Source: Bifidobacterium primatium
GTDB lineage: Bacteria > Actinomycetota > Actinomycetes > Actinomycetales > Bifidobacteriaceae
Direction of reading: 5' to 3'
Length of the DNA stretch: 64,000 bases
NCBI RefSeq assembly: GCF_002802875.1
Contig: NZ_PEBI01000003.1
Coordinates: 288,306 to 352,305, forward strand
Below are positions 361-15,076 of this stretch, in pieces (the first letter of the stretch is position 1; the number at the start of each line of letters is the position of its first letter). The position numbers were made by a program, and so were the translations under genes. The notes under the pieces are model-generated. The model ran no database searches. It saw nothing but the letters and a program-made list of their open reading frames with translations, and was not told the DNA's origin.

Positions 361-411
361 CCGAAACGACAACGCATCAACAGACAACACGGAACCAAAA
401 CGAAACGAGAC

Positions 412-1619: not shown

Positions 1620-1890
1620 ATTTAGCTTCGCCGGCTTTGCTGAGCTTGCCGCTGAACGCCTGGTTCACGATTGTGTAGACGGCTTGTGCGACGCCGATGA
1701 CGCCGGTGAGAACGATGCCCCAGCCGTAGCCGTAGAGGCCGTTGGTGGCGGCGATGGCGATAACACCAAGCAGGATGCTCAGCCGAGAGAAGTCAGCCCC
1801 ACGTAGTCAGTGGGGATGTACTTCTTAAACTCCTACACGAGTGCAAGCGCTACGAGGGCAACGATGCCGACGGCGAGGGTGGAGCCGCAA
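1618..1890 (-). pseudogene. Decayed small membrane protein, holin-like (prophage scar)
   Basis: Read on the minus strand, this stretch encodes two linked pieces of one small membrane protein in different frames. The upstream piece has a hydrophobic helix (VGIVALVALALV), then an in-frame TAG, then EFKKYIPTDYVGLTSLG. A frameshift leads into a second piece with LLGVIAIAATNGLYGYGW and GIVLTGVIGVAQAVYTIVNQ, ending in SGKLSKAGEAK and TAA at 1618. The size, helix content and charged tail resemble holins or other small membrane proteins of bifidobacterial prophages. With at least one nonsense and one frameshift mutation it is not functional. Its place beside the tRNA-Pro site suggests an older, lost prophage. 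The holin assignment is inference. Confidence 0.55.
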
Positions 1891-1959
1891 AAATGTCCAC
1901 TCTAACGACAATGAATCAGGTCCTGCGGCCATCGGATAAAATCCGATAAACCACCCCAT

Positions 1960-2009
1960 TCCCGATAAAACAACAAAGCCCTACTCCCCCAAAGCGGGAG
2001 TAGGGCTTT
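1960..2009 (-). terminator. Original tRNA-Pro terminator, displaced by integration
   Basis: Perfect 14-bp inverted repeat (1975-1988 / 1996-2009) directly abutting the att copy. On the minus strand it is followed by a T-rich tract (GTTGTTTTATC). Before integration this would have lain just downstream of tRNA-Pro; the element now supplies a replacement at 14953-14995. Confidence 0.8.
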
Positions 2010-2047
2010 CGGTCGGGCCAGCGGGATTTGAACCCACGACATCCTGC
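2008..2047. repeat. att site, distal copy (displaced tRNA-Pro 3' half)
   Basis: Forty bases identical to 14998-15037, covering tRNA-Pro from the anticodon loop to the 3' end. The sequence diverges immediately after 2047, so no 5' half follows and no tRNA can form here. The 188 bp between this repeat and the first element gene (2236) contain a perfect dyad at 2101-2116 (CGTTGA-TATT-TCAACG) and the putative integrase arm site at 2174-2198; I see no gene there. Confidence 0.92.
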
Positions 2048-2173
2048 TGTATCCGACGTTGTTGGCACTGGTTTGCACTACCATGCGCTACGCTCCTTTT
2101 CGTTGATATTTCAACGATTATAGAGCATTCTATGTACACGCTGATGTGCGCTGATTAGCGCTGGTTGCGGTAG

Positions 2174-2198
2174 CCATGTACCCGATTTGTACCCGATT
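2174..2198. repeat. Putative integrase/Xis arm-type site, left end
   Basis: A 25-bp block made of two GTACCCGATT-type units in tandem, 11 bp apart. It recurs in the same orientation at 14924-14948 with two mismatches. Paired short repeats just inside both ends of a tyrosine-integrase element are typical of arm-type binding sites. Function is inferred. Confidence 0.6.
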
Positions 2199-2235
2199 CA
2201 AAGACCTAATTCGAAGCTGTCATCCATGTCTTTCG

Positions 2236-3264
2236 TCAAAGGTCGAATCGGGAAATGATGCTACTAAAACAAGCATTCAACTTCTTCATGGAGTCAGAGG
2301 GAACGTAAAATTCTTCGGATTCATAGCAAAGGCACCTTGCAAGAAGGTACAAAGTCACCTGCATACGTTCATCATCCCGACAAGGATGCTGCTTGGACAA
2401 GTCACATATTATATCGAATATGTGCATGAATGTACCATATATTCTTACGTCTCCATTCAATACATTGTTCGCCAGGCTTTCAACCTGTAAAGCTAATTCT
2501 TTACGGCCTCGTAGCAGTCCATATTTTTTCGCCCACTGGAAGACCGACGCCATATCACCATACGTTTTGCGGGAAATGGTGCTTTCCGGATTACCCATAA
2601 GCCGTGCTTGGGCTTTCAATATGCAAAGCACTTCCTTTTGTCGGTGCCGCAAAGCAGTCACGCGCTCCGCATAAAAAAGGTCTACGGATAATCGAAGCCT
2701 TGCCGTTATTTCTTGCTGCTTTTTGTCCTCGGATTCTTCCCCTTGCGTATCATCTTGCCTGTGTTGCTCGGAAAATAACAAGTATCTGCGGAACACATCC
2801 TCCTCACACCTCTGTCTCCAAAGCTCATATTCCTGATGCAGGGCATAGGATTGTGATTCCAGTTCTTGTAAATTTTGAAACCCGTCTCTCATGATCCGCA
2901 AGCCATCATTCATCCTCTTTGCGGCTTCATTTCCATGAACGTCTTCGACCGGACCGTCGATGAATTGATGCACTTGAATATTGGTCCATCCGAGGGTGGA
3001 GAACGGCTCTATCTTCGATAGCTTGTAAGGATTCGCATAGTCCACCAGTAGAGCGCTGAGGGGAATCCCCATCCCCCTTGCGATTAGGCACAATTCCGTC
3101 AAAGAGGCGTCCTTCCTCCGTTTATCGCCAGCTTCGAGATTTTTAATAGTGCCTATTTTGAGGGCCTTATCTTCTGGTATTTCGTTATCCGCGAAGTACG
3201 CGATTTGTTCTGCTGTCAAATTGATTCTCTTGCGGAGCTCCGCGATTCTCTGTCCAATACTCAC
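2236..3264 (-). CDS. XRE-family regulator with long C-terminal domain (342 aa)
   Basis: The N-terminal ~80 residues form an XRE/Cro-type helix-turn-helix (IGQRIAELRKRINLTAEQIA, then IGTIKNLEAG). The remaining ~260 residues are charged and helical, with a glutamate/glutamine-rich probable coiled coil around residues 130-190, and match no family I can name. It starts with GTG at 3264. The coding sequence is visibly richer in A+T than its neighbours, which suggests a different origin from the high-GC helicase gene beside it. It is divergent from the ATPase/Prim-Pol genes with only 174 bp between, so it probably controls the replication genes, itself, or both. A dyad overlaps its start codon. Confidence 0.75.
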   Translation of the reverse strand: MSIGQRIAELRKRINLTAEQIAYFADNEIPEDKALKIGTIKNLEAGDKRRKDASLTELCLIARGMGIPLSALLVDYANPYKLSKIEPFSTLGWTNIQVHQFIDGPVEDVHGNEAAKRMNDGLRIMRDGFQNLQELESQSYALHQEYELWRQRCEEDVFRRYLLFSEQHRQDDTQGEESEDKKQQEITARLRLSVDLFYAERVTALRHRQKEVLCILKAQARLMGNPESTISRKTYGDMASVFQWAKKYGLLRGRKELALQVESLANNVLNGDVRIYGTFMHIFDIICDLSKQHPCRDDERMQVTLYLLARCLCYESEEFYVPSDSMKKLNACFSSIISRFDL

Positions 3265-3273
3265 GGTGTGAGT
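3259..3273. promoter_or_regulatory. Dyad over the XRE start codon, possible autoregulatory operator
   Basis: Perfect 6-3-6 inverted repeat, ACTCAC-GGT-GTGAGT, covering the GTG start of the 342-residue XRE regulator. Binding there would block its own expression. Inference from position only. Confidence 0.4.
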
Positions 3274-3438
3274 GAATCATAATCTGAATTATTTTTTCAT
3301 TACGACACGCCTATATTTTCAACGATTACTTCCAGAATATGACGAAAAAAGATGTAATTCTGTGCAAAAACGGGCCGTAGGACGCATATAAGGGGCGTCG
3401 GATAAAGCATCCGACAGTGCTATCCCGAAAGGAGAATC

Positions 3439-4980
3439 ATGAACGATAACATCGAAAACAACGGCATCCCCGACGCCTTCCGGTCCAAGGTCGAAAAGAA
3501 CCACAGGCAGAAGGCAGCGAAGGCCGGGACGGAATCCGACGACAAGCCGAAGCCCGCCTCGGCGGGAGACCTGATCCAGCTCGCCCACTCCGGGTGCGAC
3601 ATCCGTCGCCGGGACGATGGCAGGGCGTACGCGGTCGCGAAGGGTCTGGGCGTGTTCCTCGACTCCGACACGTTCAGGGGCTTCCTGAGCAACCTCGCCC
3701 GACGCTGCGGGTTCGCGCCCGCCCACAAGTCGACCATGGAGGACGCAATCCTCTGCCTGCAGGACGACGCCAAGGACACCGAGCCCATCCCCGTGCACCT
3801 GCGCGTCGCCAGGACCGAAACCGGAGTCTGGATCGACAACATCGGCCAAGATGGCCGGCTGGTCCACATCGCGAACGGCCGCTGGTCCTTGGTGGACAGA
3901 GGAGCCGACGCCGGAGCGCCGGTGTTCGAGAGGCCGGACGAGATGCGGCCGTTGCCCGTGCCGTCGGAAGATCACGGCGACCGCCTCGACGCGTTCTGGG
4001 AGGTGATCAACTGCGCCGAGCGGGACCGCGGTCTGTTGGCCGGGTGGATGGTCTACGTGCTGACCCACGAGTCCAACCCGTTCCCGCTCCTGTTGCTGGA
4101 CGCCGAACAGGGCAGCGGCAAGTCCTCCTCCATGAACGCCATCCTCGAGCTGGTCGACCCCAGCGGTATCGAGGCCGGGAAGCTCCAGAAGGACGAGCGG
4201 GATACCGCCATCGTGTGCGAACACCTGTGGTGCCTGCGCTACGACAACATCAGCTCGATGGACACCAACAAGCAGGACATGTTCTGCCGGATCAGCACGG
4301 GCGGGGGCTACGCCACGCGCTCCTTGTACAGGAACCGCGACCTCGCGACCTTCCGATTCATGCGCCCCGTGGTGATGAACTCCATCTCCCTGCCGGCCCT
4401 CCGCCCCGATCTCGCGCAGCGCACGGTCAGGCTGGAGCTGCCCCGAATCCCGGCCGAGAACCGGCAGACCGACGCAGCGTTCAAGGCGAGGAAGGAGCAG
4501 CTGAAGCCGATGCTGTTCGGGTGCCTGCTGTCCCTGTGCGCCAAGGTCGAGCAGATGCTCGAAACGGAACCGAACCTCGCGAACCCGCCCCGCATGGCGG
4601 ACTATGCGGCGACCCTCCACGCCATCGACCAGATCACGGGCTGGAACAGCCTCGACTCCTACCGCGCCCAGCAGCGGCAGCTGTCCGACGAGTCGATCTC
4701 CGAGGAGCCGATTGCGCTGGCGCTCGAGAAGATCGCAGAACAGTTCCGCCTCCCATGGGAGGGCACCTCCAAGGAGCTGCTCGAGAAGTTCCCGGAGACG
4801 TTGGGCTACGACCTGCCGACGTGGAAGAGCATGCCCCAGTCCGCCGGCGATGTCACGCGCAGCCTCAAGCGTTGCGCACAGTCCATGCGGGCCAAGGGGT
4901 GGACCATCGACCGGAGGACCGGAACCGGGCCCACGTCCGGGACGGCCATCTGGCACATCAAGGCTCCCGCGGAGCTGTAG
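3439..4980 (+). CDS. Primase-associated P-loop ATPase/helicase-like protein
   Basis: A 513-residue protein with a Walker A motif DAEQGSGKSS (GSGKS at residues 225-229) and a downstream acidic strand LRYDNIS near 266, as in plasmid and phage replicative ATPases that partner a Prim-Pol. The first ~45 residues are charged and low complexity. The C-terminal ~100 residues look like a DNA-binding tail. A strong AGGAGA lies 6-7 nt before the ATG. It is followed after 86 bp by the Prim-Pol gene on the same strand, so the two likely act as a priming/unwinding unit during element replication. No primase motif is present in this protein itself. Helicase activity is inferred from the ATPase fold and neighbour. 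Confidence 0.7.
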   Translation: MNDNIENNGIPDAFRSKVEKNHRQKAAKAGTESDDKPKPASAGDLIQLAHSGCDIRRRDDGRAYAVAKGLGVFLDSDTFRGFLSNLARRCGFAPAHKSTMEDAILCLQDDAKDTEPIPVHLRVARTETGVWIDNIGQDGRLVHIANGRWSLVDRGADAGAPVFERPDEMRPLPVPSEDHGDRLDAFWEVINCAERDRGLLAGWMVYVLTHESNPFPLLLLDAEQGSGKSSSMNAILELVDPSGIEAGKLQKDERDTAIVCEHLWCLRYDNISSMDTNKQDMFCRISTGGGYATRSLYRNRDLATFRFMRPVVMNSISLPALRPDLAQRTVRLELPRIPAENRQTDAAFKARKEQLKPMLFGCLLSLCAKVEQMLETEPNLANPPRMADYAATLHAIDQITGWNSLDSYRAQQRQLSDESISEEPIALALEKIAEQFRLPWEGTSKELLEKFPETLGYDLPTWKSMPQSAGDVTRSLKRCAQSMRAKGWTIDRRTGTGPTSGTAIWHIKAPAEL

Positions 4981-5066
4981 GAGACATCGGTCGGGGGCGG
5001 GCGTAGGGAAATCTCTGCGCCCGCCCTTGGCGGACCCTGATAGAACAAAATGCATATGCAAAGCAG

Positions 5067-5891
5067 GTGCGATACAAAATGGCATGGTATGAAGACAAAA
5101 GCCAGTTCCGCTTTAGCGCCGTGAGCACCCTGACCGGGCTGCATGACTATCGTGTTATCCCTCTGGCCAACGGAGACCGTATCTGTCCTACGCGCCAGTA
5201 TGGCGGCGCCCTTTGGAAGAATGAGCGCAACGACCCCGGCAGGCATCCAGAGCTGTTGCAGCGTATGCTGTTCGGGCTGTATATGGGAAGTACCGACCTT
5301 ATCTGCTTGGATATCGACCGGCATGAGAACAAAGGCGATGGATTCCTGACCCTGAAAAAGTGGGAAAGCCTGGGTGCCTCTCTGCCCATGACCTTGGCGA
5401 CGAACTCAAGGCATGGCAGCGGCGTGCACGTGTTTTATCGCGGCAGCGGCAGACTCAATGCCTTGAACAGGGATATCCAGAATCTGAATCTTGGAGACAA
5501 GAATCTCACCGGATTGGATGTCATCATCCGGGGATTGGTCACGTTCTGCACCCAGGACCGCCCGCCGCTCATGGAGACACGCGCCAATGGGGAGCCTTTG
5601 GCCGTCTGTCCGGAATGGCTGGAATGGCTCATCCACAAACGTCTTACACCGCCGGCAATGCCCGTCAGCGTCCCCGTTCAACGCCACCGTAAGGGATGCC
5701 CCGCAAAATGCGTCGAGCCCATCGAGAAAGGTATCCGGAACACGGAGCTCTACCGTTGGGGCTTCGGCATCTCCCATTCATATGACAACTGGGACGAGCA
5801 CGTCCGGCATCGGGGCCTCGCCAGTGGACTGCCGAGAGGAGAGATCGAGAATATCATCAAAAGCATTAGGCGGGGACGTACGGGCGCCTAA
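5067..5891 (+). CDS. Bifunctional primase/polymerase (Prim-Pol)-like protein
   Basis: A 274-residue protein with the N-terminal Prim-Pol (archaeo-eukaryotic primase-like, PF09250-type) signature. It shows the metal-binding DxD in CLDIDRHENKG (D82, D84), the nucleotide-binding SRHGSGVHVFYR (H121) and the later LDVIIRG. The C-terminal third, with a basic stretch and LPRGEIENIIKSIRRGR, resembles the PriCT helical extension. The frame opens with GTG at 5067; an ATG at 5079 is an equally good start. Such enzymes synthesise primers for plasmid or AICE replication; pSAM2 encodes one too. Here the helicase-like ATPase is a separate upstream gene rather than fused. It is convergent with the Rep gene. 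Confidence 0.72.
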   Translation: MRYKMAWYEDKSQFRFSAVSTLTGLHDYRVIPLANGDRICPTRQYGGALWKNERNDPGRHPELLQRMLFGLYMGSTDLICLDIDRHENKGDGFLTLKKWESLGASLPMTLATNSRHGSGVHVFYRGSGRLNALNRDIQNLNLGDKNLTGLDVIIRGLVTFCTQDRPPLMETRANGEPLAVCPEWLEWLIHKRLTPPAMPVSVPVQRHRKGCPAKCVEPIEKGIRNTELYRWGFGISHSYDNWDEHVRHRGLASGLPRGEIENIIKSIRRGRTGA

Positions 5892-5904
5892 GCTATCAAC
5901 GCAA

Positions 5905-6018
5905 GGGGAGATTGGGGAGATTGGGGAGTCCAGAGACGTTCTTTCTCTCTCTTCCCTCTTCCCTTCTCTCCTTCTTACACAAAAGAAAAAACTCGCCCCA
6001 AAGCCCCCAAAGCCCCCA
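5905..6018. other. Intergenic G-run/C-run block between convergent Prim-Pol and rep
   Basis: Three GGGGA-type 9-bp units (5905-5931) face three C-runs spaced by AAAG (5996-6018). A 38-bp almost pure pyrimidine tract lies between them. The G and C runs could pair as a long imperfect stem. On the minus strand the block ends in a T6 tract (about 5985-5990), so it may terminate the rep operon. A structured origin is an alternative. Confidence 0.4.
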
Positions 6019-6035
6019 TCAAGACCCTAACGGCA

Positions 6036-7187
6036 TCATCCTTTCACTGACTGAATGACGCTTTCGGCGAGGGGCACCTCTCCCGTCTCGACCAGTCCCA
6101 TTACCGTGGCCAGGACCGTGGGCATGGCCCTGAGTTGTTTCGCCTGCCGTCGCGTGAGGTCGATGAGGTTCAGGCCCAGCATGTGACGGTTGATGATCTG
6201 TTCATCGTCCTGTTCTGCCCCGATGCCTGCCTCCTTCCGTAGGTGCCGGCTCCATGTGATGGAACGGCGACGGTATACGGCATCGGAATATTCAAGCCAT
6301 AAGTGGCGCGCTCGTGCCTCCCCCAGACCGTTGATGGTGTCGTCGTCGAGCAGCTCGAAGGGGGCTATCGATCGCCCGCGCCCGCGTTTCGCATCCCCTC
6401 GGGCCATCTCCTGCTCGATGCCGTGCGACGGTCTGCCGTCCGGGTCCTTCCCCAGGTATTTCGCCGCCTTATCGGGAGTGTCGGTGATGCCTCGCAGATC
6501 CACTCCCCACCGCGGGGACGGTCTCCGCGCACCGGTACGCTCGCACGAAACCGCCCACGATTCGTAAAGCCCGCGTCGCAGTCCGTCCATGGCTGCGTCG
6601 TCGAGCGGCCGGTCATGGCACAGGAGCACGTGAAGGTGGGCGTGCCATCCCGATGACGGCCCCCATGTGATTTCCATGGCACGGACGTAGTGGCTGATTC
6701 CGTAGGCCTGTTTGATGCGCCGCCAGCGTTGGCTGCCGGCCAGCGCCGACCATGCTCCCGCTATGAGGTCTAGATTGTCCGTCAAAGCGTCCGTTTTTCT
6801 ATGTCGGGTGGTGAGGGTCGCCATTGACAGACCGTGGGCCGCATCCTGCAGCCAGTAGTCGACGGCCTGCGTCAGGTCCTGTCGGCGGGCGGAGCGGATG
6901 ATCGGCGTGCAGATGGGGCAGGCCCATGGGCTTGCGCAGTGCTCGAGACCTGCCATGTAGGCGGCGCCGTCCTGGATGCGGATTCCCGCTCTGCCCACCG
7001 GCCATCCGCATCTCGCGAGGCGTGGTGGGCAGATGAAACGAGGCACCGGGTCCGCCGTCCTCTCCCGTAGGACGCGTTGGATGAGCCATCTCGAACTCTG
7101 GTTGCGCCGCTGCCACTGTCTGGTTCTCCACTGCCTCCGGTTGTCCGCCTGTACTCGTGGATTGACCATTGGCTGCTGTTGTGTCAT
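6036..7187 (-). CDS. HUH-family replication initiator, RepSA/Rep_1-like
   Basis: Rolling-circle initiator. Numbering from the ATG at 7187 (383 aa): a cysteine cluster HCASPWACPIC (C84, C90, C93; probable zinc site), the metal-binding HUH strand GWHAHLHVLL (H182/H184/H186) and the KYLGK motif with the likely nicking Tyr244. The order is typical of actinobacterial Rep proteins of AICEs and pIJ101-type plasmids. The open frame continues to 7310, but that start would overlap the ftsK-like gene by 115 bp. The ATG at 7187 lies 9 bp after that gene's stop and fits an operon. It is the last gene of a four-gene minus-strand operon (SCO3933 family, membrane protein, FtsK, Rep). Confidence 0.82.
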   Translation of the reverse strand: MTQQQPMVNPRVQADNRRQWRTRQWQRRNQSSRWLIQRVLRERTADPVPRFICPPRLARCGWPVGRAGIRIQDGAAYMAGLEHCASPWACPICTPIIRSARRQDLTQAVDYWLQDAAHGLSMATLTTRHRKTDALTDNLDLIAGAWSALAGSQRWRRIKQAYGISHYVRAMEITWGPSSGWHAHLHVLLCHDRPLDDAAMDGLRRGLYESWAVSCERTGARRPSPRWGVDLRGITDTPDKAAKYLGKDPDGRPSHGIEQEMARGDAKRGRGRSIAPFELLDDDTINGLGEARARHLWLEYSDAVYRRRSITWSRHLRKEAGIGAEQDDEQIINRHMLGLNLIDLTRRQAKQLRAMPTVLATVMGLVETGEVPLAESVIQSVKG

Positions 7188-7195
7188 ATCTGCGG

Positions 7196-7993
7196 CTATG
7201 TCCGGTACTGTTCCAGTTGCGTATCGTCGATGAAGGGGACCCTGAAGCGCGTGGCCATGCGCGTATCCCATATCCATCCCGTGCCCGGCCTGTCCAGGGG
7301 GATGAGCCATGGGGCGCAGCCCGCCTGCAGGGCATCCTCGCCCATGAGCAAGCGTGATTCCTCTATGGAATTGAGACGTAGGGCGATACGGGAGGGGAAG
7401 CGGTCACGTAGTTTGAAGCTTTCCTTTCTGGGGTCCTGACTGGATGCGATGACCATCAGCCCTGCGCTGCGCCCTAGTCGGAGCAACGAATCCAAGGGGG
7501 CGAGCAGCTTGCGTGTCGCGGCTTCGGAGTCTCCCCGCAGCTCCGCGGCCTCATCGAGGATTACCAACAGAAGAGGTGTTTCCTGGCCGATGCCGACTTT
7601 CCTCCGGTGCTGTTCGATAAGCATACGGTTCCGTTTGGCAAGCTCATTTCGTAGATCCGAAAACATGTCCGACGCCGCGGTCTTTTCGGTGGCAAGACGT
7701 CCGATAAGCCGCCCATAGGCGGACATCTCCACACCGTCCTTGAGGTCCACCCCGTAGGTGAGTACTTTTCCTTCGGCGATCGCGTCGGCCATGTTGACGA
7801 GCAGATTGGTGATGATCTGGCTTTTGCCGGAACCGGTCAAGCCGCAGATGTAGGTGTGCGTCATGGGCAGGGACACCCAGCGCCGGCGTTCGGTGTCATG
7901 GAAGCCCAGCGGAAGCGCACCGGCCGGCCGCTTCCGCTGTTCGCCACGCTTGAATAGGCGTGGCAGGCGTGGCGTCATCGTGTGAGGATCCAT
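7196..7993 (-). CDS. FtsK/SpoIIIE-type DNA translocase of the element (TraSA-like)
   Basis: A 265-residue soluble P-loop ATPase with Walker A GLTGSGKSQ (51-59), Walker B LLLVILDEAAEL (from 141) and the FtsK-type SQDPRKES/LRDRFPSRIALRL region that follows. FtsK-like proteins of AICEs pump double-stranded plasmid DNA into the recipient. Unlike TraSA or TraB it has no N-terminal membrane helices, and no clear C-terminal winged-helix domain follows the motor. An ATG at 7978 overlaps the stop of the upstream membrane gene in an ATGA arrangement and may be the true start; the ATG at 7993 overlaps by 19 bp. Tight coupling suggests the upstream protein is its membrane anchor. Confidence 0.85.
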   Translation of the reverse strand: MDPHTMTPRLPRLFKRGEQRKRPAGALPLGFHDTERRRWVSLPMTHTYICGLTGSGKSQIITNLLVNMADAIAEGKVLTYGVDLKDGVEMSAYGRLIGRLATEKTAASDMFSDLRNELAKRNRMLIEQHRRKVGIGQETPLLLVILDEAAELRGDSEAATRKLLAPLDSLLRLGRSAGLMVIASSQDPRKESFKLRDRFPSRIALRLNSIEESRLLMGEDALQAGCAPWLIPLDRPGTGWIWDTRMATRFRVPFIDDTQLEQYRT

Positions 7994-8349
7994 GTACGGC
8001 GTCGGTGTTTTACCGGCAGGGATTCAGCCCCGCCCATAGACAGCGCGTCCCGTAGTTCGGTGGCCTTCTGATTGGCCTTCTCCATGTCTTTGATGGCGGG
8101 GACATCGCGCACGGGCACGGTTATGCGAATGCTGCGGGCCCGTCCCATGGTCCATGGTATGAATTGGGGGAGCCCCCACGGCCCATACCAGATGCGTGGT
8201 TTCTTGTCCTCGGCCATTCCCAGCAGGGATTCGACGGTCCTGCTGACGTCCTGCGTGACATAAGCCGCGTAACAGACCACCGATAGGCAGACGAGTCCCA
8301 CAAGGGCAATGAGGATGATGGGCCAATAGGCGGTGAGAAAATCAAGCAT
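7975..8349 (-). CDS. Small membrane protein coupled to the FtsK translocase
   Basis: A 124-residue protein with one clear membrane helix near the N-terminus (about residues 5-30, with PIILIALVGLVCLSVVCYAAY), then a basic cytoplasmic domain with GPWGLPQFIPWTMG and a C-terminal KHRRRTWILTR. A perfect AGGAGG precedes the ATG at 8349. Its stop overlaps the start of the FtsK-like ATPase. It resembles in size and position the small mobile-element transfer proteins beside FtsK genes in Streptomyces AICEs. It may anchor or regulate the motor, which lacks its own membrane helices. No named family recognised; function is inferred. Confidence 0.7.
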   Translation of the reverse strand: MLDFLTAYWPIILIALVGLVCLSVVCYAAYVTQDVSRTVESLLGMAEDKKPRIWYGPWGLPQFIPWTMGRARSIRITVPVRDVPAIKDMEKANQKATELRDALSMGGAESLPVKHRRRTWILTR

Positions 8350-8411
8350 GTATGCCTCCTGATACCGGGGTTGATGGCACCCGCGAACGTTGCCTGCGGG
8401 TGCCACCATCG

Positions 8412-8774
8412 TTATTCCTGATTGAACTCGTCGTCATCCGCGGGGACGGGGATGCTCGCAGGGACGGGGGTGCCGGAGGGTCTGATGGCGTCCGCCCGCA
8501 TGGTGATTCCGGCGCGTCCGTCAATCGACCACTGGGATGCCGTGAGGTTCTCGATGCTGACTGGCGTCATCTGGGCGATGGCGAGGGGTGTCATGCTGGG
8601 CACGTTGACGTCGATGACCTCAGGCTTGCCATTTTCGGGCTGGATGAGAATATGCGTGGTCTGCTCGGGCACGCCGTCACGCAGACGCTGCTTGCCTTCC
8701 TGATCGAGTCGCGGTTCGACTGAGACGAACAATGTCGGACCGAGGGCCGGCACGGAAATGGGCATATGCTTCAT
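8412..8774 (-). CDS. SCO3933-family protein, AICE hallmark (probable ssDNA-binding/regulatory)
   Basis: A 120-residue protein. The core GVPEQTTHILIQ...VIDVNVPS...LTASQWSIDGRAGITMRADAIR follows the consensus of the SCO3933 family, small beta-rich proteins encoded beside FtsK and Rep genes in Streptomyces AICEs. The strand pattern suggests an OB-like fold. The C-terminus is acidic (PADDDEFNQE), as in single-strand-binding proteins, but that similarity is inference. A good AAGGAGTG lies before the ATG at 8774. It is the first gene of the minus-strand transfer/replication operon. Confidence 0.72.
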   Translation of the reverse strand: MKHMPISVPALGPTLFVSVEPRLDQEGKQRLRDGVPEQTTHILIQPENGKPEVIDVNVPSMTPLAIAQMTPVSIENLTASQWSIDGRAGITMRADAIRPSGTPVPASIPVPADDDEFNQE

Positions 8775-8846
8775 GGATCACTCCTTGTCTGTCGCTGTAT
8801 CAGGGCTGAGAATGTCCCCTCATGCAGGGGCTATGCGAGCAGCGAA

Positions 8847-8874
8847 GCCTTGGTAATAATCGCGGTTAACTCCG
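8847..8874. repeat. 28-bp direct repeat, copy 1 (contains the DUF4192 stop codon)
   Basis: Identical to 9753-9780. The TAA stop of the DUF4192 gene lies inside it. Its core TAATCGCGGTTA is an imperfect palindrome. The pair flanks a 0.9-kb module holding the DUF4192 gene and the hairpin-rich region. Confidence 0.8.
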
Positions 8875-9384
8875 TGTGGAATGCAGTCCATGGTGGATGG
8901 CAGTCAGTATCGTGGTCGCCAATGTGATATCGGCATCGATGTTGAGGGCCATGATGGCTGCGGTCTCGGCTTCATCCGTCAAGCCCTGCATCCACTGCAG
9001 GTAGGCGATGACGGCGAGGCATTGCGCCCGTGCCGGAAGCGCTTGCTGCGCCGCATCCATGATGATGGCGGTCATGTCATCGGCACGGCCGTGCATGATG
9101 GCGCGTATCTGCCGAGTGGTGGCGTTGTAGGCTGTGGTCACGATATCGGTCACGATGCGCGCTGTCTTGGCATCGGCCGGTGCTTGGATGATTGCCATGA
9201 ACTGCCGTTGGCTCAGTGTGGGGTCCATCGCCTTGCACAGGATGGCGTCCCTATGGCAGACCGACATGATGGATTCCCCTATCAGGGTGGTAAGACGCAG
9301 ACACTGTTGCGGGGTCAGACCGGTCTCCGTCCGGTCCAGAAGCTCCCATAGCTCCCGGTCATGCTGCATGTTGTGTTGTGTCAT
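8866..9384 (-). CDS. DUF4192-like protein
   Basis: A 172-residue soluble helical protein. VCHRDAIL, the block ARAQCLAVIAYLQWMQG and the ending MALNIDADITLATTILTAI follow the DUF4192 pattern common in actinobacteria (an alpha-helical, TPR-like C-terminus with a 'wisgDgaRA..a...al..dP...LA' signature). Biochemical role is unknown. The start is ATG 9384, preceded by AAAGGACGG; the frame stays open to 9723 but that part runs through the hairpin region and is not coding. It is a lone minus-strand gene within the 28-bp repeats, upstream of the transfer operon. Family assignment is moderately sure. Confidence 0.6.
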   Translation of the reverse strand: MTQHNMQHDRELWELLDRTETGLTPQQCLRLTTLIGESIMSVCHRDAILCKAMDPTLSQRQFMAIIQAPADAKTARIVTDIVTTAYNATTRQIRAIMHGRADDMTAIIMDAAQQALPARAQCLAVIAYLQWMQGLTDEAETAAIMALNIDADITLATTILTAIHHGLHSTRS

Positions 9385-9420
9385 TGTCCGTCCTTTCGCC
9401 TGTTGCTTTTTTGTTTTTGC

Positions 9421-9541
9421 CGTTTCCGGCTGGCTCCAGGACTGTGGTGGCGTCGCGGACGTCCAGCCGGAACACTCCGTGCCGTGTGTGGGCCGGTTGG
9501 ACGTCCGCGACGCCACCGCTATCGTGGTGATGCCGGAAACG
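9421..9541. repeat. Large stem-loop, candidate replication or transfer origin
   Basis: Nested inverted repeat: 25-bp inner arms 9446-9470 and 9493-9517 (one mismatch, 22-nt loop), enclosed by perfect 10-bp outer arms 9421-9430 and 9532-9541. It is far larger than a terminator and is not followed by a T-run. It lies upstream of DUF4192 and the rep/transfer operon. HUH-Rep double-strand origins and AICE clt sites are repeat-rich, so this is the best origin candidate in the element. Confidence 0.7.
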
Positions 9542-9554
9542 CCAAAACAGGGCC

Positions 9555-9751
9555 ATCCCGGCCAAGGCCGGGATCCGGGAAAGACATCATCGCCGCCGGC
9601 TTGCCACGCCGGCGTCCCTATACGGGTGCGCGCCTGCGCGTTCCTTATTCCCCCGACCACGCGTCGCCAGACTCCGTCGTCTGATGCGGCGGATTCTTCC
9701 ATGGGCCGCGCTTGCGCGGCCAAGCCCCGACGGGCCGTAGGCCCGGCGGGG
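9555..9751. repeat. Series of four GC-rich hairpins beside the large stem-loop
   Basis: Perfect or near-perfect hairpins at 9555-9574 (ATCCCGGCC/GGCCGGGAT), about 9594-9612 (GCCGGC arms), 9704-9721 (GGCCGCG/CGCGGCC) and 9725-9751 (CCCCG-A-CGGGCC arms). No gene is supported in this interval. With 9421-9541 they form a 330-bp structured region. Confidence 0.65.
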
Positions 9752-9752
9752 C

Positions 9753-9780
9753 GCCTTGGTAATAATCGCGGTTAACTCCG
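9753..9780. repeat. 28-bp direct repeat, copy 2
   Basis: Identical to 8847-8874. It ends 38 bp before the terminator of the surface-protein gene. Recombination with copy 1 would delete DUF4192 and the hairpin region. Confidence 0.8.
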
Positions 9781-9817
9781 CATCGATATTTACCTTCGGG
9801 AATAGGCCATGGAAAAC

Positions 9818-9856
9818 AAGAACCCCATCCCTCCGATCATGGAGAAGATGGGGCTC
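9818..9856 (-). terminator. Terminator of the surface-protein gene
   Basis: Inverted repeat 9820-9829 / 9847-9856 with an inner CTCC/GGAG stem. On the minus strand it is followed by CTTGTTTTCC. It lies 28 bp after the stop of the 9885-12881 gene. Confidence 0.75.
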
Positions 9857-9884
9857 TAATGTGTCAGCGTCCTATGGCCGGCTG

Positions 9885-12881
9885 TCAGCCTTCGATGAGG
9901 CTTTGGGTGTCGGTCCAGCCGGCGGCGTGCTTGGCGTAGCGGCGGCGCATGAGGACGCTGCCGGCGCCGGCCACGGCCATGATGGCGGTCAGGCCGAGGA
10001 TGACGGTGGACTCCGTGCCCGTGTGGGCGAGGCCGTTCTCGGAGACGCCGGCGGTCTTCACGTCGCCGGTGGCGACGGCCGCAGCGCGAGCCTTGGCCTC
10101 CTTGGCGGCCTTGGCCTTGGCTTCGGCGGCGGCCTTGGCCTTGCGTGCGGCTTCGGCCTTGGCGGTCTGGGCCTTCTTGGCCTCGTCGGCCTTCTTCTTG
10201 GCCTCGGCTTCGGCCTTCTTGGCGGCGGCGAGCTCCTTGTCGCTGGCGGTCTTGTCGGCCTTGGCGGCGTCGTACGCCTTCTTCGCCTTGGCGTAGTTCT
10301 CGTCGGCGGTCTTCTTGGCGGCGTTGGCCTCGGCGAGGGCCTTGTCGGCGGCCTCGGCCTTGGCCTTGGCGTCGGCCAGCTCCTGCTCCACGTTGGCGTA
10401 GGAGTCGATGACGGCCTGCGCGGCCTTGCCGCGGGCCTCGGCGTCGGACAGGGCCTTGTTCGCGGCCGTCAGGTCCGCGGTCCTCGCGTCGTACGTGGCC
10501 TTGGCGGCGTCGACCTTCGCCTGCGCGTCCTTCACGGCGGCGCTGCTGGCGGCGTGCGTGACCTTGGCCGTCTCCAGCGTCTTCTCCGCGGCCTTGAGGG
10601 CCGTGTCGGCGTCGGCAACGGCCTTGTCGGCCTTGGCGATGCGGTCCTGTGCGGCCGTGATGGCCTGCTGGGCGGCGGCCTTGTCCTTGACCGCCTGTTC
10701 GGCCTTGGCGGCGGCCGCGTCCACGGCCTGCTGCGCCTTCGACTGGGCCTGCTGTGCGGCCGTCAGCGCGTCGGCGGCGTCCGAGGCGGTCTTCGCGGCC
10801 GTGTCGGACTCGGTCTTGGCGGTGGCGGTGGCGGCCTTGGCGGTCTCGTAGGCTTCGGTCTTGGCGGTCTGGTCGGCCTTCGCGTCCTTCAGCGCCTGCG
10901 CCTTGTCGCCCTGCGCGGCCACGGCCTCGTCGTAGCGCTTCTGCGCCTCCTCGACGGCCTTCGCGGCCGCGGCGGAGTCCTTGGCGGCCTGCTCGGCGGC
11001 CTGCTGCGCCTTGGCGGCCTGCTCGGTCGCGGCGACCAAAGCCTTGGCGGCGGCCTCGGAGTCCTTGGCGGCCGTGTCGGCGGCGCTCTGGGCCTTCTGG
11101 TAGTCCGCGCCCGCGTTCTTCAGGGCGTCGCGCCATGCGGTCAGGTCGGCGATGTAGTCGTCGACGGTCATGGTGCGGGAGCCCTCGGACTGCCCGTAGA
11201 AGTCGCTGGTGCCGAAGCCCATCTGGGAGACGTAGCCGCCGAAGACGTTGCCCTCCGCGCCCGCGCCCACGACGGCAGCGCCGGCCACGTCGTTGTACGT
11301 GTTGATGAGGTTCTGGTAGTGGCCGGTCCGGTTGAAGTCCGTCACGCCCTTGTCGTACTGCTCCTTCTCGGCGAACCACCAGCCGCCGAACGGGCCGTCC
11401 GTGTTGTCGGTGTCGTTGAGGTTCGGATCGTAGCCCATCGCCAGGTTTTCGGTGCCGACGATGCCGGAGTGGTTGCCGATCATGGAGCCGCGCAGGGCGC
11501 TCAGGGCGGAGGTCGCCATGATCATGTCGTTGACCTTGAGGGCGGGCAGACCCTGGGTGGCGCGCAGCTCGTTGGCGCGCTTGATGAGCTTCAGCGCGGC
11601 GATGACGTTGTCGATGTTCGTCGGCGAATCCGGATTGTCATAGCCCAGCTTGGCGAGGTCCTTGACAGCCTGGTTGCGGTTGGGGTTTGTGGCGAAGGTG
11701 GGGTCGGTAAGCGCCTTGTACGCAGCGACAGCCCCCTTGTCGAGGTAGTATCCGGCCACCCCCTGGCTGAGCTTCTCGTCGGCCGAGTCGGCCTTCGCCT
11801 TCGCGGCCTTGGCGGCGTCGGCCTTCGCCTGCGCGTCGGCCTGCTTGGCCTGCGCGTCGGAGGCCTTGTCGCTCTTCGCCTTGTCCGCGTCGGCCTTCGC
11901 CTTGTCGGCGGCGCTCTGGGCGGCCTCGGCCTTCGCCTGCGCGTCCTTGGCGGCCTGCAGCTGCTCGGCGAGCTTCGCCAGCCCGTCGTCGCCCGACTCC
12001 AGGTCCTTGACCTTCTGGTCGGCCGCGTCCTTCGCGGTCTTGGCGTCGGCCTCGGCCTTCTGGGCCTTGTCGAACGCCTCGAGCTTCGCCTTCGCATCCG
12101 CATCGGCGTTCTGCTTGGCCGTGGTCTTCGAGGCCACGTCCTTGTCGGCGGCCGTCTTGTCCTTCGCGGCCTGCTCGCCCTCGCTCTTCGCGTCCGCGGC
12201 CTTCTGGTCGGCGGCCTTGTCGGCGGCCTGCGCGTCGGACAGCGCCTTGTTCGCGTTCGACTGCTCGGCCACGGCGTTCTGCTTGGCCGTGGTCTTGGCG
12301 TCCACGTCGGCCTGTGCGGCCTTCTCGGCGGCCGCGTCCTTCGCCTCCGTCTGCGCCTTGGCGTCACGGTCGGCGGTCGCGGTGTCGAGCTGGCCCTTGG
12401 CGGCCGACTGCGCCTGCTGGGCCTGCGTCACCTGCTGGCTGGCTGCGGCCGCGTCCTTGGCGGCCTGCTGGGCCTGCGCCGTCGCCTCGGCGCGCTTGGT
12501 GCCGGCCTCGTCGGCGCGCTGCTGCGCGGTCGCGTAGCCGTTGTGTGCTGCGGTCGCGTTCGACTGGGCCTGCTGCTGGTTGGCCGTGGCCTGCGATTGG
12601 GCCTGTGCGGCGGCGTTCAAACCGGCCTGCGCCTTCTCGAGGTTCGCCTGCGCGGCATCCGCCTTCGCCTGCGCCTCCTTGCTGGAGGTCGGAGCCGCCT
12701 TCACCGCGGCGTTCGCCTCCGACGCGGCCTGGACGCTGGCCTGCGCCTGCGCGACCGAAGCGGCCGCCTCCTCGTCCTTCAACTGCGGTTGCGCCGTCTC
12801 CGCCGCGTTCGCCGCAGCCGGACCCGCCAGCGACGCCACCGCCGCGACCGTGGCGACCGTGGCCTTCAATGCCTTGCTCAT
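9885..12881 (-). CDS. Wall-anchored alanine-rich coiled-coil/CAP surface protein, SEC10/PgrA type
   Basis: A 998-residue protein starting at ATG 12881, with GAAGGAGA before it. It has a signal peptide (SKALKATVATVAAVASLAG, ending ANA), then ~330 residues of Ala/Lys/Asp/Gln heptad coiled coil. A globular region at roughly 390-600 carries CAP/SCP-like motifs (IKRANELRATQGLPALKV, GTENLAMGY, YNDVAGAAVVG, YVSQMGFGTSDFYG). A second ~330-residue coiled coil follows, then the sortase signal LAHTG (951-955), a hydrophobic helix and RRR. This architecture is that of SEC10/PgrA surface-exclusion proteins of enterococcal conjugative plasmids. It is probably a cell-wall cargo protein of the element, affecting mating or adhesion. 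The tail after the anchor is unusually long. Confidence 0.82.
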   Translation of the reverse strand: MSKALKATVATVAAVASLAGPAAANAAETAQPQLKDEEAAASVAQAQASVQAASEANAAVKAAPTSSKEAQAKADAAQANLEKAQAGLNAAAQAQSQATANQQQAQSNATAAHNGYATAQQRADEAGTKRAEATAQAQQAAKDAAAASQQVTQAQQAQSAAKGQLDTATADRDAKAQTEAKDAAAEKAAQADVDAKTTAKQNAVAEQSNANKALSDAQAADKAADQKAADAKSEGEQAAKDKTAADKDVASKTTAKQNADADAKAKLEAFDKAQKAEADAKTAKDAADQKVKDLESGDDGLAKLAEQLQAAKDAQAKAEAAQSAADKAKADADKAKSDKASDAQAKQADAQAKADAAKAAKAKADSADEKLSQGVAGYYLDKGAVAAYKALTDPTFATNPNRNQAVKDLAKLGYDNPDSPTNIDNVIAALKLIKRANELRATQGLPALKVNDMIMATSALSALRGSMIGNHSGIVGTENLAMGYDPNLNDTDNTDGPFGGWWFAEKEQYDKGVTDFNRTGHYQNLINTYNDVAGAAVVGAGAEGNVFGGYVSQMGFGTSDFYGQSEGSRTMTVDDYIADLTAWRDALKNAGADYQKAQSAADTAAKDSEAAAKALVAATEQAAKAQQAAEQAAKDSAAAAKAVEEAQKRYDEAVAAQGDKAQALKDAKADQTAKTEAYETAKAATATAKTESDTAAKTASDAADALTAAQQAQSKAQQAVDAAAAKAEQAVKDKAAAQQAITAAQDRIAKADKAVADADTALKAAEKTLETAKVTHAASSAAVKDAQAKVDAAKATYDARTADLTAANKALSDAEARGKAAQAVIDSYANVEQELADAKAKAEAADKALAEANAAKKTADENYAKAKKAYDAAKADKTASDKELAAAKKAEAEAKKKADEAKKAQTAKAEAARKAKAAAEAKAKAAKEAKARAAAVATGDVKTAGVSENGLAHTGTESTVILGLTAIMAVAGAGSVLMRRRYAKHAAGWTDTQSLIEG

Positions 12882-12952
12882 GTGTTTCTCCTTCGGTTCC
12901 TCCATGGAAACGGGACACCCCCACACCCCGACAACCGACATGCGGAAGCGCT

Positions 12953-13056
12953 ATACATGCGTTTGTATGCCACATATATATGGCATCCACCATATGACGG
13001 AGCATGAACAACCCCCGACCCCCACCACTGCATTTAGCCATATAAGAGAGGCTATA
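12953..13056. promoter_or_regulatory. Cluster of dyads between the surface-protein and XRE genes
   Basis: The divergent region has three inverted repeats: about 12953-12968 (ATACA/TGTAT), 12967-12986 (ATGCCA-8 nt-TGGCAT) and 13037-13056 (TAGCC/GGCTA). They are embedded in TATATA-like promoter sequence. They are likely operators for the adjacent 96-residue XRE protein. Confidence 0.5.
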
Positions 13057-13078
13057 TACATGTTGCATAGGTTTCAGC

Positions 13079-13369
13079 ATGGATGTCATGCCCAAGACCA
13101 GCCCCGCAGACGACGAATGGCGCGAATACGTAAAACGACTGGGGGTCAACCTCCAGCGGGCGCGCCAGCAAAGACGCCTGTCGCAGGAACGCGTCGCCTA
13201 CGACGCCGGCCTGTCGCGGTATACGTACCAAAAATTCGAGAAGGGCGAGTCCATGCCAGGTACTCCGGCGAATCCCAGTCTCCACAACGTCATGGCCATA
13301 GCCCAAGTTCTTGGCGTCGATTTGACCGACCTGCTTCCGGAGCCATGGCCCGACCTACGGGCCAAATAA
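13079..13369 (+). CDS. XRE-family helix-turn-helix regulator (96 aa)
   Basis: A compact Cro/C1-type regulator, almost entirely the HTH domain: LGVNLQRARQQRRLSQERVA, then YDAGLSRYTYQKFEKGES and a final helix VMAIAQVLGVDLTDLLPE. The start is ATG 13079 or 13088; neither has a good ribosome-binding site. It is divergent from the surface-protein gene across a dyad-rich 197-bp region and is convergent with the integrase, which ends 14 bp away. It most likely represses the surface-protein promoter or its own, or acts as the element's master switch. Targets are inferred from position. Confidence 0.78.
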   Translation: MDVMPKTSPADDEWREYVKRLGVNLQRARQQRRLSQERVAYDAGLSRYTYQKFEKGESMPGTPANPSLHNVMAIAQVLGVDLTDLLPEPWPDLRAK

Positions 13370-13383
13370 TCAGACTATTGGAC

Positions 13384-14652
13384 CTATAGCAGCACGTCGT
13401 CATTTATCGCCCCGGCAATCTCGCTTGCACGATTCGGCCATAAGTCGGCATAGGTATCCAACGTCTCGGCGGCCGAGGCATGGCCCATAACGTTCTGCAA
13501 CGTTTTCACATCACACCCATTCCGTATGGCGATGGACGCATACGAGTGCCTTAGGGAATGAATGGACAGCCCACGAACGCCGTCCAGCCCGGCTGCTTGC
13601 AGAGCATGTCTCCATATACGACTGCGCCAGTTATTTACGATATGACGTCCTCCGCGTGGTGCCCGAAACAGATAGTCGTCGTCCCCTTGTCTCTCGGTAA
13701 GGGCCATGAGCATTGGCTTCAGCTTCGTCGGGAAAGGCACCGTACGGGATCTGCCATTCTTCGGAGTGGTCTCAATGGCATGCCCTTCCGCATCCACTGA
13801 CTGGGTGCGGGTTATGGATATGGTCGCCGCATCGAAATCGACGTCACCGCAGCGTAGGGCCACAGCCTCCCCTATGCGCACGCCTGTGTATGCGAGCAGA
13901 TAGACCATTGACCTGTCAGGTACGTTCATCTCGGATGCAATGGCGTGAATCTCCTCAGGGGTGAGATACACGCGCGGTACGGAAACCGTCTGCTTCGGGA
14001 TTTTCACGTCGTTCACGGGGTTGGACTGCATCCACCCTGCTTTGACCGCGTAATCCAGACATCCCTTGAAAACCACCTTGACGATCGATCGGATGGATTT
14101 GGGGGCAAGCGGTCTGGGTTCTCCGATTTTCCCGTTTCTGGGAGCGGTTCCCTTGACCAGTTGCGCCACCCATGCCTGTATGGAGGTCGATGTGATTCGC
14201 CCCAAGGGAACTCGCCCCCATCGGGGGAGCACCCATATGCGCAGTTCGCGCAGGTAACGCCCCTCCGTCGCACCCTTAACCGTTCCGGTCAGACCGGAAG
14301 ACCACGAATCCGCAATCTGCTTGAATGTACGTTCCAGATTGTCGGGGTTGATGTACCGGCCGGATCGAATATCGTCCTCAACGGATGCCTTGAACTCTTC
14401 GGCCAAGCGGTATTCGGAGAAATTCCTCTTCTTCCTTTTCCCGTCGGCGTTCCAATAGACGGTCCATCTCGCCCCCTTGCCGAATTCCACGGTCCGGAAT
14501 TCCTCCGGTACCTTCGCCCGCTCGGGGTGCGTCATGTTCTGCGCCAAGGACCGCTTCATTTGAGGAGAGGGCTCGACACGCGTCTTCGACCCATCCCCCA
14601 ACGTTATTTGTGCCGAGGTAAGCCACCGGTCGTTTATCCATGCTCGTGCCAT
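13384..14652 (-). CDS. int: Tyrosine site-specific integrase
   Basis: A 422-residue phage-type integrase with an N-terminal AP2-like/SAM-like arm- and core-binding region and a C-terminal catalytic domain. The catalytic residues are present: Arg259 in TGVRIGEA, His365 and Arg368 in HSLRH, His391 in VMGHAS and the nucleophile Tyr401 in TLDTYADL. The start is the ATG at 14652, preceded by AGAGG; the frame stays open to 14895, but the extension overlaps the divergent xis gene and is not coding. It catalyses insertion at the 3' half of tRNA-Pro(TGG), 345 bp from attR, and excision with Xis. Confidence 0.93.
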   Translation of the reverse strand: MARAWINDRWLTSAQITLGDGSKTRVEPSPQMKRSLAQNMTHPERAKVPEEFRTVEFGKGARWTVYWNADGKRKKRNFSEYRLAEEFKASVEDDIRSGRYINPDNLERTFKQIADSWSSGLTGTVKGATEGRYLRELRIWVLPRWGRVPLGRITSTSIQAWVAQLVKGTAPRNGKIGEPRPLAPKSIRSIVKVVFKGCLDYAVKAGWMQSNPVNDVKIPKQTVSVPRVYLTPEEIHAIASEMNVPDRSMVYLLAYTGVRIGEAVALRCGDVDFDAATISITRTQSVDAEGHAIETTPKNGRSRTVPFPTKLKPMLMALTERQGDDDYLFRAPRGGRHIVNNWRSRIWRHALQAAGLDGVRGLSIHSLRHSYASIAIRNGCDVKTLQNVMGHASAAETLDTYADLWPNRASEIAGAINDDVLL

Positions 14653-14706
14653 ACCGACCTCTATGCGTCCAGAGACGACCGGTTGCCCCGCATAGCCAGA
14701 GGCATG

Positions 14707-14907
14707 ATGACCAAAGATGATAGCGAGGAGAATCTGCTCACCCCGGCGCAGGTGGCGAAGATTCTCGGCATACCGGTAAGCACGTTGTCGCGATGGCGAA
14801 GCGAAAGAAGGGAACTGCCGTATGTCAAAATCGGCCGGGTCGTAAGATACCGCCCATGCGACCTGGCGGAATGGCTGGAGACCAAAATCGTCCACCCACG
14901 CCCGTAG
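14707..14907 (+). CDS. xis: Excisionase (Xis), MerR/AlpA-type HTH
   Basis: A 66-residue DNA-binding protein with the excisionase pattern LLTPAQVAKILGIPVSTLSR (winged HTH), then PYVKIGRVVRYRPCDLAEWL. It is in its usual place beside int, but divergent, with 54 bp between starts. Two adjacent ATGs (14704, 14707) are possible; AGAGG at 14698-14702 is better spaced for 14707. It is the outermost gene, 90 bp from attR, and would bias Int toward excision. Confidence 0.85.
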   Translation: MTKDDSEENLLTPAQVAKILGIPVSTLSRWRSERRELPYVKIGRVVRYRPCDLAEWLETKIVHPRP

Positions 14908-14923
14908 GAAGGACCTCCATCAT

Positions 14924-14948
14924 CCATGTACCCGATAGGTACCCGATT
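14924..14948. repeat. Putative integrase/Xis arm-type site, right end
   Basis: Same orientation and same tandem GTACCCGATT architecture as 2174-2198, with two mismatches, 50 bp inside attR. Confidence 0.6.
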
Positions 14949-14952
14949 GTGA

Positions 14953-14995
14953 AAACAGCGGAATTCCAACACCATAGAAACGTTGAAATTCCGCC
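14953..14995 (-). terminator. Element-supplied terminator for tRNA-Pro
   Basis: A 13-bp inverted repeat (14958-14970 / 14982-14994, one G-U pair) followed on the minus strand by CTGTTTTC. It sits directly after the tRNA 3' end and replaces the host terminator now at 1960-2009. Confidence 0.75.
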
Positions 14996-14997
14996 AC

Positions 14998-15037
14998 TTC
15001 GGTCGGGCCAGCGGGATTTGAACCCACGACATCCTGC
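14998..15037. repeat. att site, tRNA-proximal copy
   Basis: The 40-bp direct repeat within the intact tRNA-Pro, identical to 2008-2047. It restores the tRNA 3' half after integration. The 216 bp from the tRNA 5' end to the next gene (15293) contain no gene that I can support. Confidence 0.92.
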
Positions 15038-15076
15038 TCCCAAAGCAGGCGCGCTACCAAACTGCGCTATGGCCCG
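15003..15076 (-). tRNA. tRNA-Pro(TGG)
   Basis: 74-nt cloverleaf on the minus strand: acceptor CGGGCCA/TGGCCCG, anticodon arm CTGCT-TTGGGAG-CAG giving anticodon TGG, and T-loop TTCAAAT. CCA is not encoded. It is the integration target of the adjacent element. Confidence 0.96.

Follow-up and report, generated by a model that had tools for sequence, protein, structure and literature searches.

Do bifidobacteria harbour elements that conjugate as double-stranded DNA by means of an FtsK-type pump? The question is raised by an insertion of about 13 kb in a 64,000-nucleotide stretch of Bifidobacterium primatium DNA (contig NZ_PEBI01000003.1; hereafter the window, to which positions refer unless stated otherwise), which an earlier note had likened to an actinomycete integrative and conjugative element (AICE) residing in a tRNA-Pro gene. 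AICEs need no genuine type IV secretion system (T4SS), and Bifidobacteriales 'appeared to be completely devoid of AICEs', save one putative integrative and conjugative element (ICE) with Rep2 in B. longum, according to the survey by Ghinet et al. (2011, PMC3218068). Among the open-access papers listed as matches, this survey alone brings AICEs and Bifidobacterium together; judged by title and opening abstract, none of the others listed treats these elements. We consider it rather probable that the insertion is an intact AICE of a lineage belonging to bifidobacteria, with excision, replication and a two-piece pump for double-stranded DNA as proposed below.

The same survey recognises AICEs by an integrase, an FtsK protein and a Prim-Pol or other replication module (RepSA or RepAM), and by these operational criteria the predicted gene content makes the element an AICE. 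A tyrosine integrase lies next to the attachment (att) site and not between rep and tra, the Tra protein carries an FtsK/SpoIIIE domain (PF01580) well above its cut-off, and Prim-Pol supplies the replication module, with a Rep_1 initiator also there. Among ten element proteins, no relaxase, which would mark a mobilizable (MOB) element, and no T4SS family exceeded its Pfam or NCBIfam cut-off, and the motor gave only weak P-loop cross-matches to T4SS-type families. The AICE-like architecture, the lack of relaxase and T4SS genes in the element and the set Int, Xis, HUH Rep, FtsK and Prim-Pol had all been read from the letters in the earlier note, and the searches bear them out (PF00589, PF01446, PF01580 and PF09250 over their cut-offs; Xis by phrog_66).

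Boundaries, insertion site and recombination genes

The ends of the element and the genes next to them are as follows.

1961-2007: terminator-like hairpin beside the left att, found directly 3' of the tRNA gene in relative G005
2008-2048: att copy away from the tRNA gene, 41 bp (exact repeat of 14998-15038)
2178-2197, plus strand: tandem GTACCCGAT-N2-GTACCCGAT, candidate integrase arm-type site (motif search)
13384-14559, minus strand: tyrosine integrase of 391 amino acids (aa), open reading frame (ORF) open to 14895 (PF00589, 91.3 bits, cut-off 27.1)
14707-14907, plus strand: Xis/AlpA-like excisionase, divergent from int (phrog_66, E 5.5e-11)
14928-14947, plus strand: second candidate arm-type site, same GTACCCGAT tandem (motif search)
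14998-15038: att copy at the tRNA gene, mostly within the 3' half of tRNA-Pro (exact repeat)
15001-15076, minus strand: tRNA-Pro(TGG), the integration site (tRNA prediction)

The two att copies agree at 41 of 41 bases and are spaced by 12,990 bp; exact direct repeats of at least 26 bp come in two pairs only in the 64 kb, this one and a 28-bp pair within the element. Att repeats of a 13-kb element had been reported before, with a length of 40 bp that has to be corrected to 41. The proposed integration in tRNA-Pro of a Bifidobacterium-like chromosome was likewise found: the host belongs to the Bifidobacteriaceae, and the insertion, site-specific and flanked by direct repeats, sits at the 3' end of tRNA-Pro(TGG), which carries the right-hand copy. 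An unoccupied site, suggested earlier as a check, is seen in the closest relative available (G005; right flank 92% identical to the window), whose tRNA-Pro gene continues directly into the counterpart of 1961-2007. Window flanks joined by script align with this genome across the junction, with homology on the left side ending after about 47 bp; the 13 kb is therefore an insertion. Searches of this relative for the motor (at E 1e-12) and for Int (at E 1e-20) gave no match. In another species (G002), DNA 90% identical to the left flank of the window (1-1609) is found about 1.5 kb past tRNA-Pro.

Between the integrase gene and the att copy, 439 bp away, lie Xis and one candidate arm site. Tyrosine recombinases are characterised by the residues R, HxxR, H and Y, all of which were found by eye in the translation, and the nearest homologues (64, 59, 56 and 53% identical) come from four other Bifidobacteriaceae genomes. 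Each of the two occurrences of GTACCCGAT-N2-GTACCCGAT in the 64 kb lies just inside one att copy, and the same tandem is likewise present twice, just inside the att copies, in a second element (L170) with an integrase 59% identical; we infer that the tandems are arm-type sites.

L170 itself (positions 364-6294, genome G536), a relative 5.9 kb long, also sits at tRNA-Pro(TGG); it has Int, Xis and the arm sites, gave no motor or Rep match, and is a stripped-down or decaying element. Two other species (G002 and G008; loci L129 and L131) have extra att-like copies beyond tRNA-Pro, and phage ctl617 encodes an integrase 44% identical to that of the window in a gene adjoining tRNA-Pro; judging by these copies and this phage, the site is used repeatedly. 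In an element in tRNA-Ser (L198), TCCGGTA is repeated in tandem immediately inward of each att copy (1788-1807 and 11450-11469), a possible parallel to the arm sites of the window with a different motif.

The proposed transfer operon and its relatives

Transfer and replication genes occupy the middle of the element.

8412-8774, minus strand: SCO3933-like protein (NF051478, 33.5 bits, E 3.7e-8, below the cut-off of 80)
7975-8349, minus strand: 124-aa membrane protein, proposed motor anchor (hydrophobic stretch by eye; position kept in three plasmids and other elements)
7196-7978, minus strand: FtsK/SpoIIIE-type motor lacking a membrane part, 7993 being a possible ORF start (PF01580, 44.8 bits, cut-off 24)
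6036-7187, minus strand: Rep_1-family HUH initiator, ORF could start at 7310 (PF01446, 47.9 bits, cut-off 33.2)
5067-5891, plus strand: Prim-Pol primase/polymerase domain protein (PF09250, 28.2 bits, cut-off 22.8)
3439-4980, plus strand: 513-aa AAA/helicase-like replication protein (names of relatives; Walker A by eye; no Pfam match)

On the minus strand, the SCO3933-like gene is followed by the gene of the membrane protein, the motor and the Rep_1 initiator. Membrane protein and motor genes overlap as ATGA (7978-7975), and the Rep start at 7187 lies just past the ftsK stop. The Walker A motif appears at residue 51 of the 265-aa motor ORF, while in 72 of 74 loci from other actinobacteria (exceptions L055 and L071) it lies at least 150 residues into the FtsK ORF, with a median of 241; all ORFs were measured from the first possible start, which may lengthen them. 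FtsK relatives were collected with a four-row alignment that found at least 104, the best 80 of which were taken as loci; single-protein scans (Rep against genome contigs; FtsK and Int against viral contigs) confirmed no close relatives. In a bifidobacterial set of ten loci, which includes a contig filed under a Coriobacteriaceae metagenome-assembled genome (L026), eight motors are short (offset at most 123) and two are fused to a membrane segment (L059, 428 aa; L096, 423 aa), and L096 and L031 have near-identical motors of which one is fused and the other split. The stop-start overlap of anchor and motor is present in the window, plasmid p4M, L026, L031 and L191; plasmid pBC has a 2-base gap, the junction in L027 is not of the overlap form, and the motor start of plasmid pASV479 is uncertain. 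Going by this arrangement, the membrane protein at 7975-8349 is likely the membrane part of a split FtsK pump.

TraB is built in one piece, a single protein that comprises the membrane anchor, the motor and a domain for DNA recognition. The window departs from this design, as its motor stands alone, the proposed anchor is a separate gene and a C-terminal extension is lacking. A frameshifted FtsK as cause of the short motor was rejected, since plasmids and other species show the same split; the single TAG met by the motor in the genome-wide search is its own stop codon (match ending at contig position 295501).

The gene upstream of the membrane protein had been assigned to the SCO3933 family. 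The similarity stands (E 3.7e-8) and the score stays below the family cut-off. An iterated profile found a relative in 74 of 85 loci, upstream of FtsK on the same strand in 73, with p4M among the misses, and a profile search revealed no solved structural relative of the family. The profile of the motor matches solved structures of FtsK, EccC and a coupling protein, and the fold alone is therefore not decisive.

The Rep translation contains HAHLHVL and YLGK. For the 513-aa protein, relatives are named 'ATP-binding protein' on Streptomyces plasmids and helicase/primase in a Microbacterium phage (Zeta1847), and the gene occurs in 10 of 396 genomes of the order at E 1e-6 or better, its own genome counted. 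Prim-Pol with a partner gene is one of the AICE replication types described in the survey (PMC3218068).

How widespread is the module? At E 1e-25 or better, the motor was found in 15 of 189 Bifidobacteriaceae genomes (2 of 16 genera). At ten of these 15 loci the motor is surrounded by integrase sequence and by a direct repeat of 21-60 bp that overlaps a tRNA gene with one of its copies; the tRNA genes are those for Pro, Ala (2), Ser, Gly and Met (5), and the repeats are exact except in L198 (25 of 28 bases identical). A tree of 41 motors was built from 17 motors of the bifidobacterial set and 24 further ones (that of pMR2 and 23 from the 74 loci); a branch supported at 100/98 has all 17 on one side. 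Plasmid-borne motors fall among the 17, several of which, that of the window included, form long branches; left out were L192, L193, L196 and L200 (on contigs equal in length to those of L059, L050, L031 and L096), L160, and L199 and L201 with their broken motors. The transfer module does not look imported from Streptomyces or Frankia: in the tree its motor clusters with the bifidobacterial ones, among them those carried on plasmids. The B. tsurumiense element (L096/L200) is flanked by direct repeats of 41 and 185 bp with a shared spacing of 9,376 bp (31-270 and 9407-9646); no tRNA was found at these repeats, which might represent another kind of att site or stem from the assembly.

The order anchor, motor, Rep recurs in B. 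simiarum and on the plasmids p4M (4,488 bp), pBC (11,012 bp) and pASV479 (4,815 bp). The plasmids resemble the window in their succession of a small gene, a membrane gene, an FtsK or AAA motor of 253-278 aa and Rep; they differ from it as free plasmids with no integrase annotated. Moreover, p4M and pBC have Rep proteins of other types, the first gene of p4M corresponds by position only, and the pASV479 motor is very divergent (22% identical). Across elements, the transfer module accompanies Rep_1, CRESS-like Viral_Rep or Rep_OBD initiators, and replication genes thus appear to have been swapped among its carriers. A CRESS-virus-like Rep stands with the module in L022 and L027 (PF02407) and, by similarity, in L026. 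Besides the module, pBC (L021, NZ_CP018045.1) has a gene predicted to serve chloramphenicol efflux (cmx) and one for a methyltransferase of EcoRI type.

Nearest kin of the element by Int, Xis and Rep is a B. simiarum element at tRNA-Pro(GGG) (L160), with Int 64%, Xis 73%, Rep 48% and the SCO3933-like protein 46% identical and the distal-att end conserved (75% over 109 bp including att); unlike the window element, it measures 7.1 kb, has a different secreted CAP-like protein and gives no Prim-Pol match. Outside the family, pMR2 of Micromonospora rosaria and SCO3933-type AICE modules likewise combine Int, Xis, Rep, FtsK and an SCO3933-like protein. However, the FtsK of pMR2 is one protein of about 553 aa, whereas the window has a motor of 260-265 aa with a separate anchor, and adds Rep_1 with a Prim-Pol/helicase-like pair and a wall-anchored CAP protein as cargo. 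The putative B. longum ICE is also an integrated bifidobacterial element with tra and int; it belongs to another Rep family (PMC3218068). Perhaps it is related to the elements at tRNA-Met described above (Rep_OBD being PF01719).

Proposed mechanism and competing explanations

How would such an element move? We propose that Int and Xis excise it from tRNA-Pro via the 41-bp repeats, using the GTACCCGAT tandems as arm sites, and that the excised circle would replicate by the rolling-circle mode via the HUH Rep, perhaps assisted by the Prim-Pol/helicase-like pair. The operon of SCO3933-like protein, anchor, motor and Rep would then move the double-stranded circle to a neighbouring cell, anchor and motor jointly doing the work of a one-piece TraB, and the CAP wall protein may serve as surface-exclusion or contact protein. 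AICE-type double-stranded transfer with a two-piece pump is the best-supported reading of the locus. The degenerate Rep or FtsK that the earlier note would have held against mobility is not observed, as both genes are open with their motifs kept; a decayed element was rejected, the genes being open over the expected lengths with catalytic motifs there by eye.

Several observations weigh against this reading. The motor has neither a membrane part of its own nor a C-terminal extension, and hhalign of the anchors against the N-terminal part of one-piece FtsK gave a probability of 2.4%, which leaves their homology unsupported. The nearest kin, L160, has a one-piece, divergent FtsK of 492 aa, missed by the motor search, and its SCO3933-like gene is on the opposite strand. 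At five of the 15 motor loci no repeat pair anchored in a tRNA gene was seen (L189, L190, L191, L200 and L201; for L190, L191 and L200 the contig ends there or close by), and breaks occur both at these loci (integrase in two frames in L190, broken motor in L201) and among the ten tRNA-anchored loci (integrase in two frames in L192 and L197, broken motor in L199). The GTACCCGAT-N2-GTACCCGAT tandem is absent from 14 other loci tested, including L160 with its 64% identical Int. Finally, a TrwC relaxase gene (about 1464 aa) is present on another contig of the same genome.

Might the element be an integrated replicon that lost transfer or never had it, with motor and anchor serving segregation or dimer handling of its excised or plasmid form? 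The missing membrane part and C-terminal extension of the motor, the broken relatives and the presence of the same module on plasmids of 4.5-4.8 kb typed 'non-mobilizable' all point that way. We nevertheless regard this as unlikely, as the window genes are open with their motifs kept and the module is retained alongside three or more types of Rep (Rep_1, CRESS-like and Rep_OBD) and in elements at several different tRNA genes, which suggests selection in mobile DNA. The TrwC gene bears on another explanation, by which a relaxase and T4SS acting in trans would mobilize the element and the FtsK-like protein would serve as its coupling protein; the gene keeps this explanation alive, with no secretion ATPase found. 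It would also fit the HUH nature of Rep, the match of the motor profile to 6o1w, titled 'DNA translocase coupling protein', and weak TraJ and VirB4 NCBIfam matches of the motor below cut-off. On the other hand, the genome, 97.6% complete, gave no match to the relaxase families PF03432 and PF02486 and no VirB4 over cut-off (one match reached 17.8 bits), and a well-conserved neighbour of the motor is the AICE-type SCO3933-like gene, which makes mobilization in trans quite improbable in our view. The TrwC gene lies near an integrase and, by eye, RepA-type ATPase-like and helix-turn-helix (HTH) genes (L204, 182-8567; G000:C1:919181-927566), and this locus is probably a separate mobilizable element of the same genome.

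A phage satellite or filamentous-phage-like provirus would account for the block of Int, Xis, Prim-Pol and helicase, for the relative of the 513-aa protein in phage Zeta1847, for the ctl617 integrase beside tRNA-Pro and for the matches of Rep to phage records (26-30% identity, mostly filamentous Propionibacterium phage B5 types). Yet Rep is nearer to plasmid proteins (up to 38%), the motor belongs to the FtsK_SpoIIIE family and has an SCO3933-like neighbour and plasmid relatives, and no capsid or coat family was among the Pfam, NCBIfam and PHROG matches of the scanned proteins, the surface protein being outside the PHROG scan. The weak PHROG terminase matches of motor (E 4.8e-5) and Xis (E 6.5e-5) are taken for P-loop and HTH cross-matches, and we hold a phage origin to be very improbable.

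Returning to the AICE reading, 15 of 189 family genomes with the motor, ten of them with tRNA-anchored repeats and integrase sequence, stand against the 'devoid' Bifidobacteriales of the survey (PMC3218068). If transfer is true, it would be a relaxase-free and T4SS-free route of gene flow in gut commensals, some of which are used as probiotics. As the motor is split from its proposed anchor by nature, the locus also offers a small system for testing what a TraB-type pump needs, outside mycelial bacteria. A bolder and clearly tentative idea is that bifidobacteria own an old form of double-stranded DNA conjugation, with a two-piece, translationally coupled TraB shared by integrated elements and by plasmids down to 4.5 kb; some of these elements would use CAP surface-exclusion proteins to protect the cell from re-entry. 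If two-piece conjugation is true, these 4.5-kb plasmids would be among the smallest self-transmissible ones.

Cargo and further features

The remaining features of the element comprise a cargo gene, regulators and internal repeats.

9885-12941, minus strand: wall-anchored protein of 1018 aa with coiled coils and a CAP domain at its centre, start maybe at 12881 (PF00188; tail by translation)
13079-13369, plus strand: 96-aa Cro/CI-type HTH regulator (PF01381, 42.6 bits)
2236-3264, minus strand: 342-aa regulator-like protein (phrog_5823, E 5e-4; weak N-terminal similarity to phage regulators)
8866-9384, minus strand: 172-aa protein with weak DUF4192 similarity (E 0.013, below cut-off)
8847-8874: first copy of the 28-bp repeat, in part palindromic, located upstream of the transfer operon (exact copy at 9753-9780)
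9753-9780: 28-bp repeat copy 2 (exact repeat)
9436-9527: large inverted repeat, arms of 40 nt, 83% complementary (repeat search)

The surface protein, which together with the helicase-like protein (3439-4980) and the membrane protein (7975-8349) goes beyond the text of the earlier note, begins with a signal-like segment, contains Ala-rich coiled coils and, centrally, a CAP domain, and has an LAHTG motif with hydrophobic tail. It qualifies for the CAP superfamily when residues 396-605 are given alone (PF00188, 22.7 bits, cut-off 21.1), the whole protein giving no CAP match; the wall-anchor model reached 17.1 bits (cut-off 20). Enterococcal SEC10/PgrA are surface-exclusion proteins. The window protein is like them in its TIGR04320-type region and as a large wall-anchored coiled-coil protein carried on a transfer element, but falls outside the family (27.4 bits, cut-off 70); we hypothesise a role in surface exclusion.

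CAP proteins of the window type occur in 58 of 189 family genomes and are therefore not special to elements. In three of the 15 motor-bearing genomes (window, L198 and L201) one lies at most 10 kb from the motor, against 0.16 expected from 21 CAP loci in these genomes (Poisson P about 6e-4), a post hoc test in which two of the 21 loci adjoin on one contig, L201 is without an att pair and cargo genes cluster anyway. L160 probably carries a CAP protein as well, a weaker fourth case (profile E 4.7e-5, pairwise E 0.001, no phmmer or Pfam match). A PADLOC scan of seven proteins for defence cargo gave HTH and P-loop ATPase matches only. In place of the CAP protein, L031/L196, L050 and L096 have methyltransferase-like cargo, partly named by eye, and pBC carries relatives of the L196 methyltransferase and of a DUF262-like gene of L031.

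The 342-aa protein has no Pfam match and a weak likeness to a gene of the L027 element (E 1.7e-5). The 28-bp repeat, with its core TAANCGCGNTTA, stands upstream of the transfer operon and of the DUF4192-like gene, and is possibly a shared operator or cis-acting transfer (clt) site of this element; as a conserved operator or clt site it was rejected, being absent from ten related loci. Upstream of the DUF4192-like gene, the inverted repeat at 9436-9527 folds as RNA with -67.9 kcal/mol over 105 nt and could be a replication origin or an attenuator.

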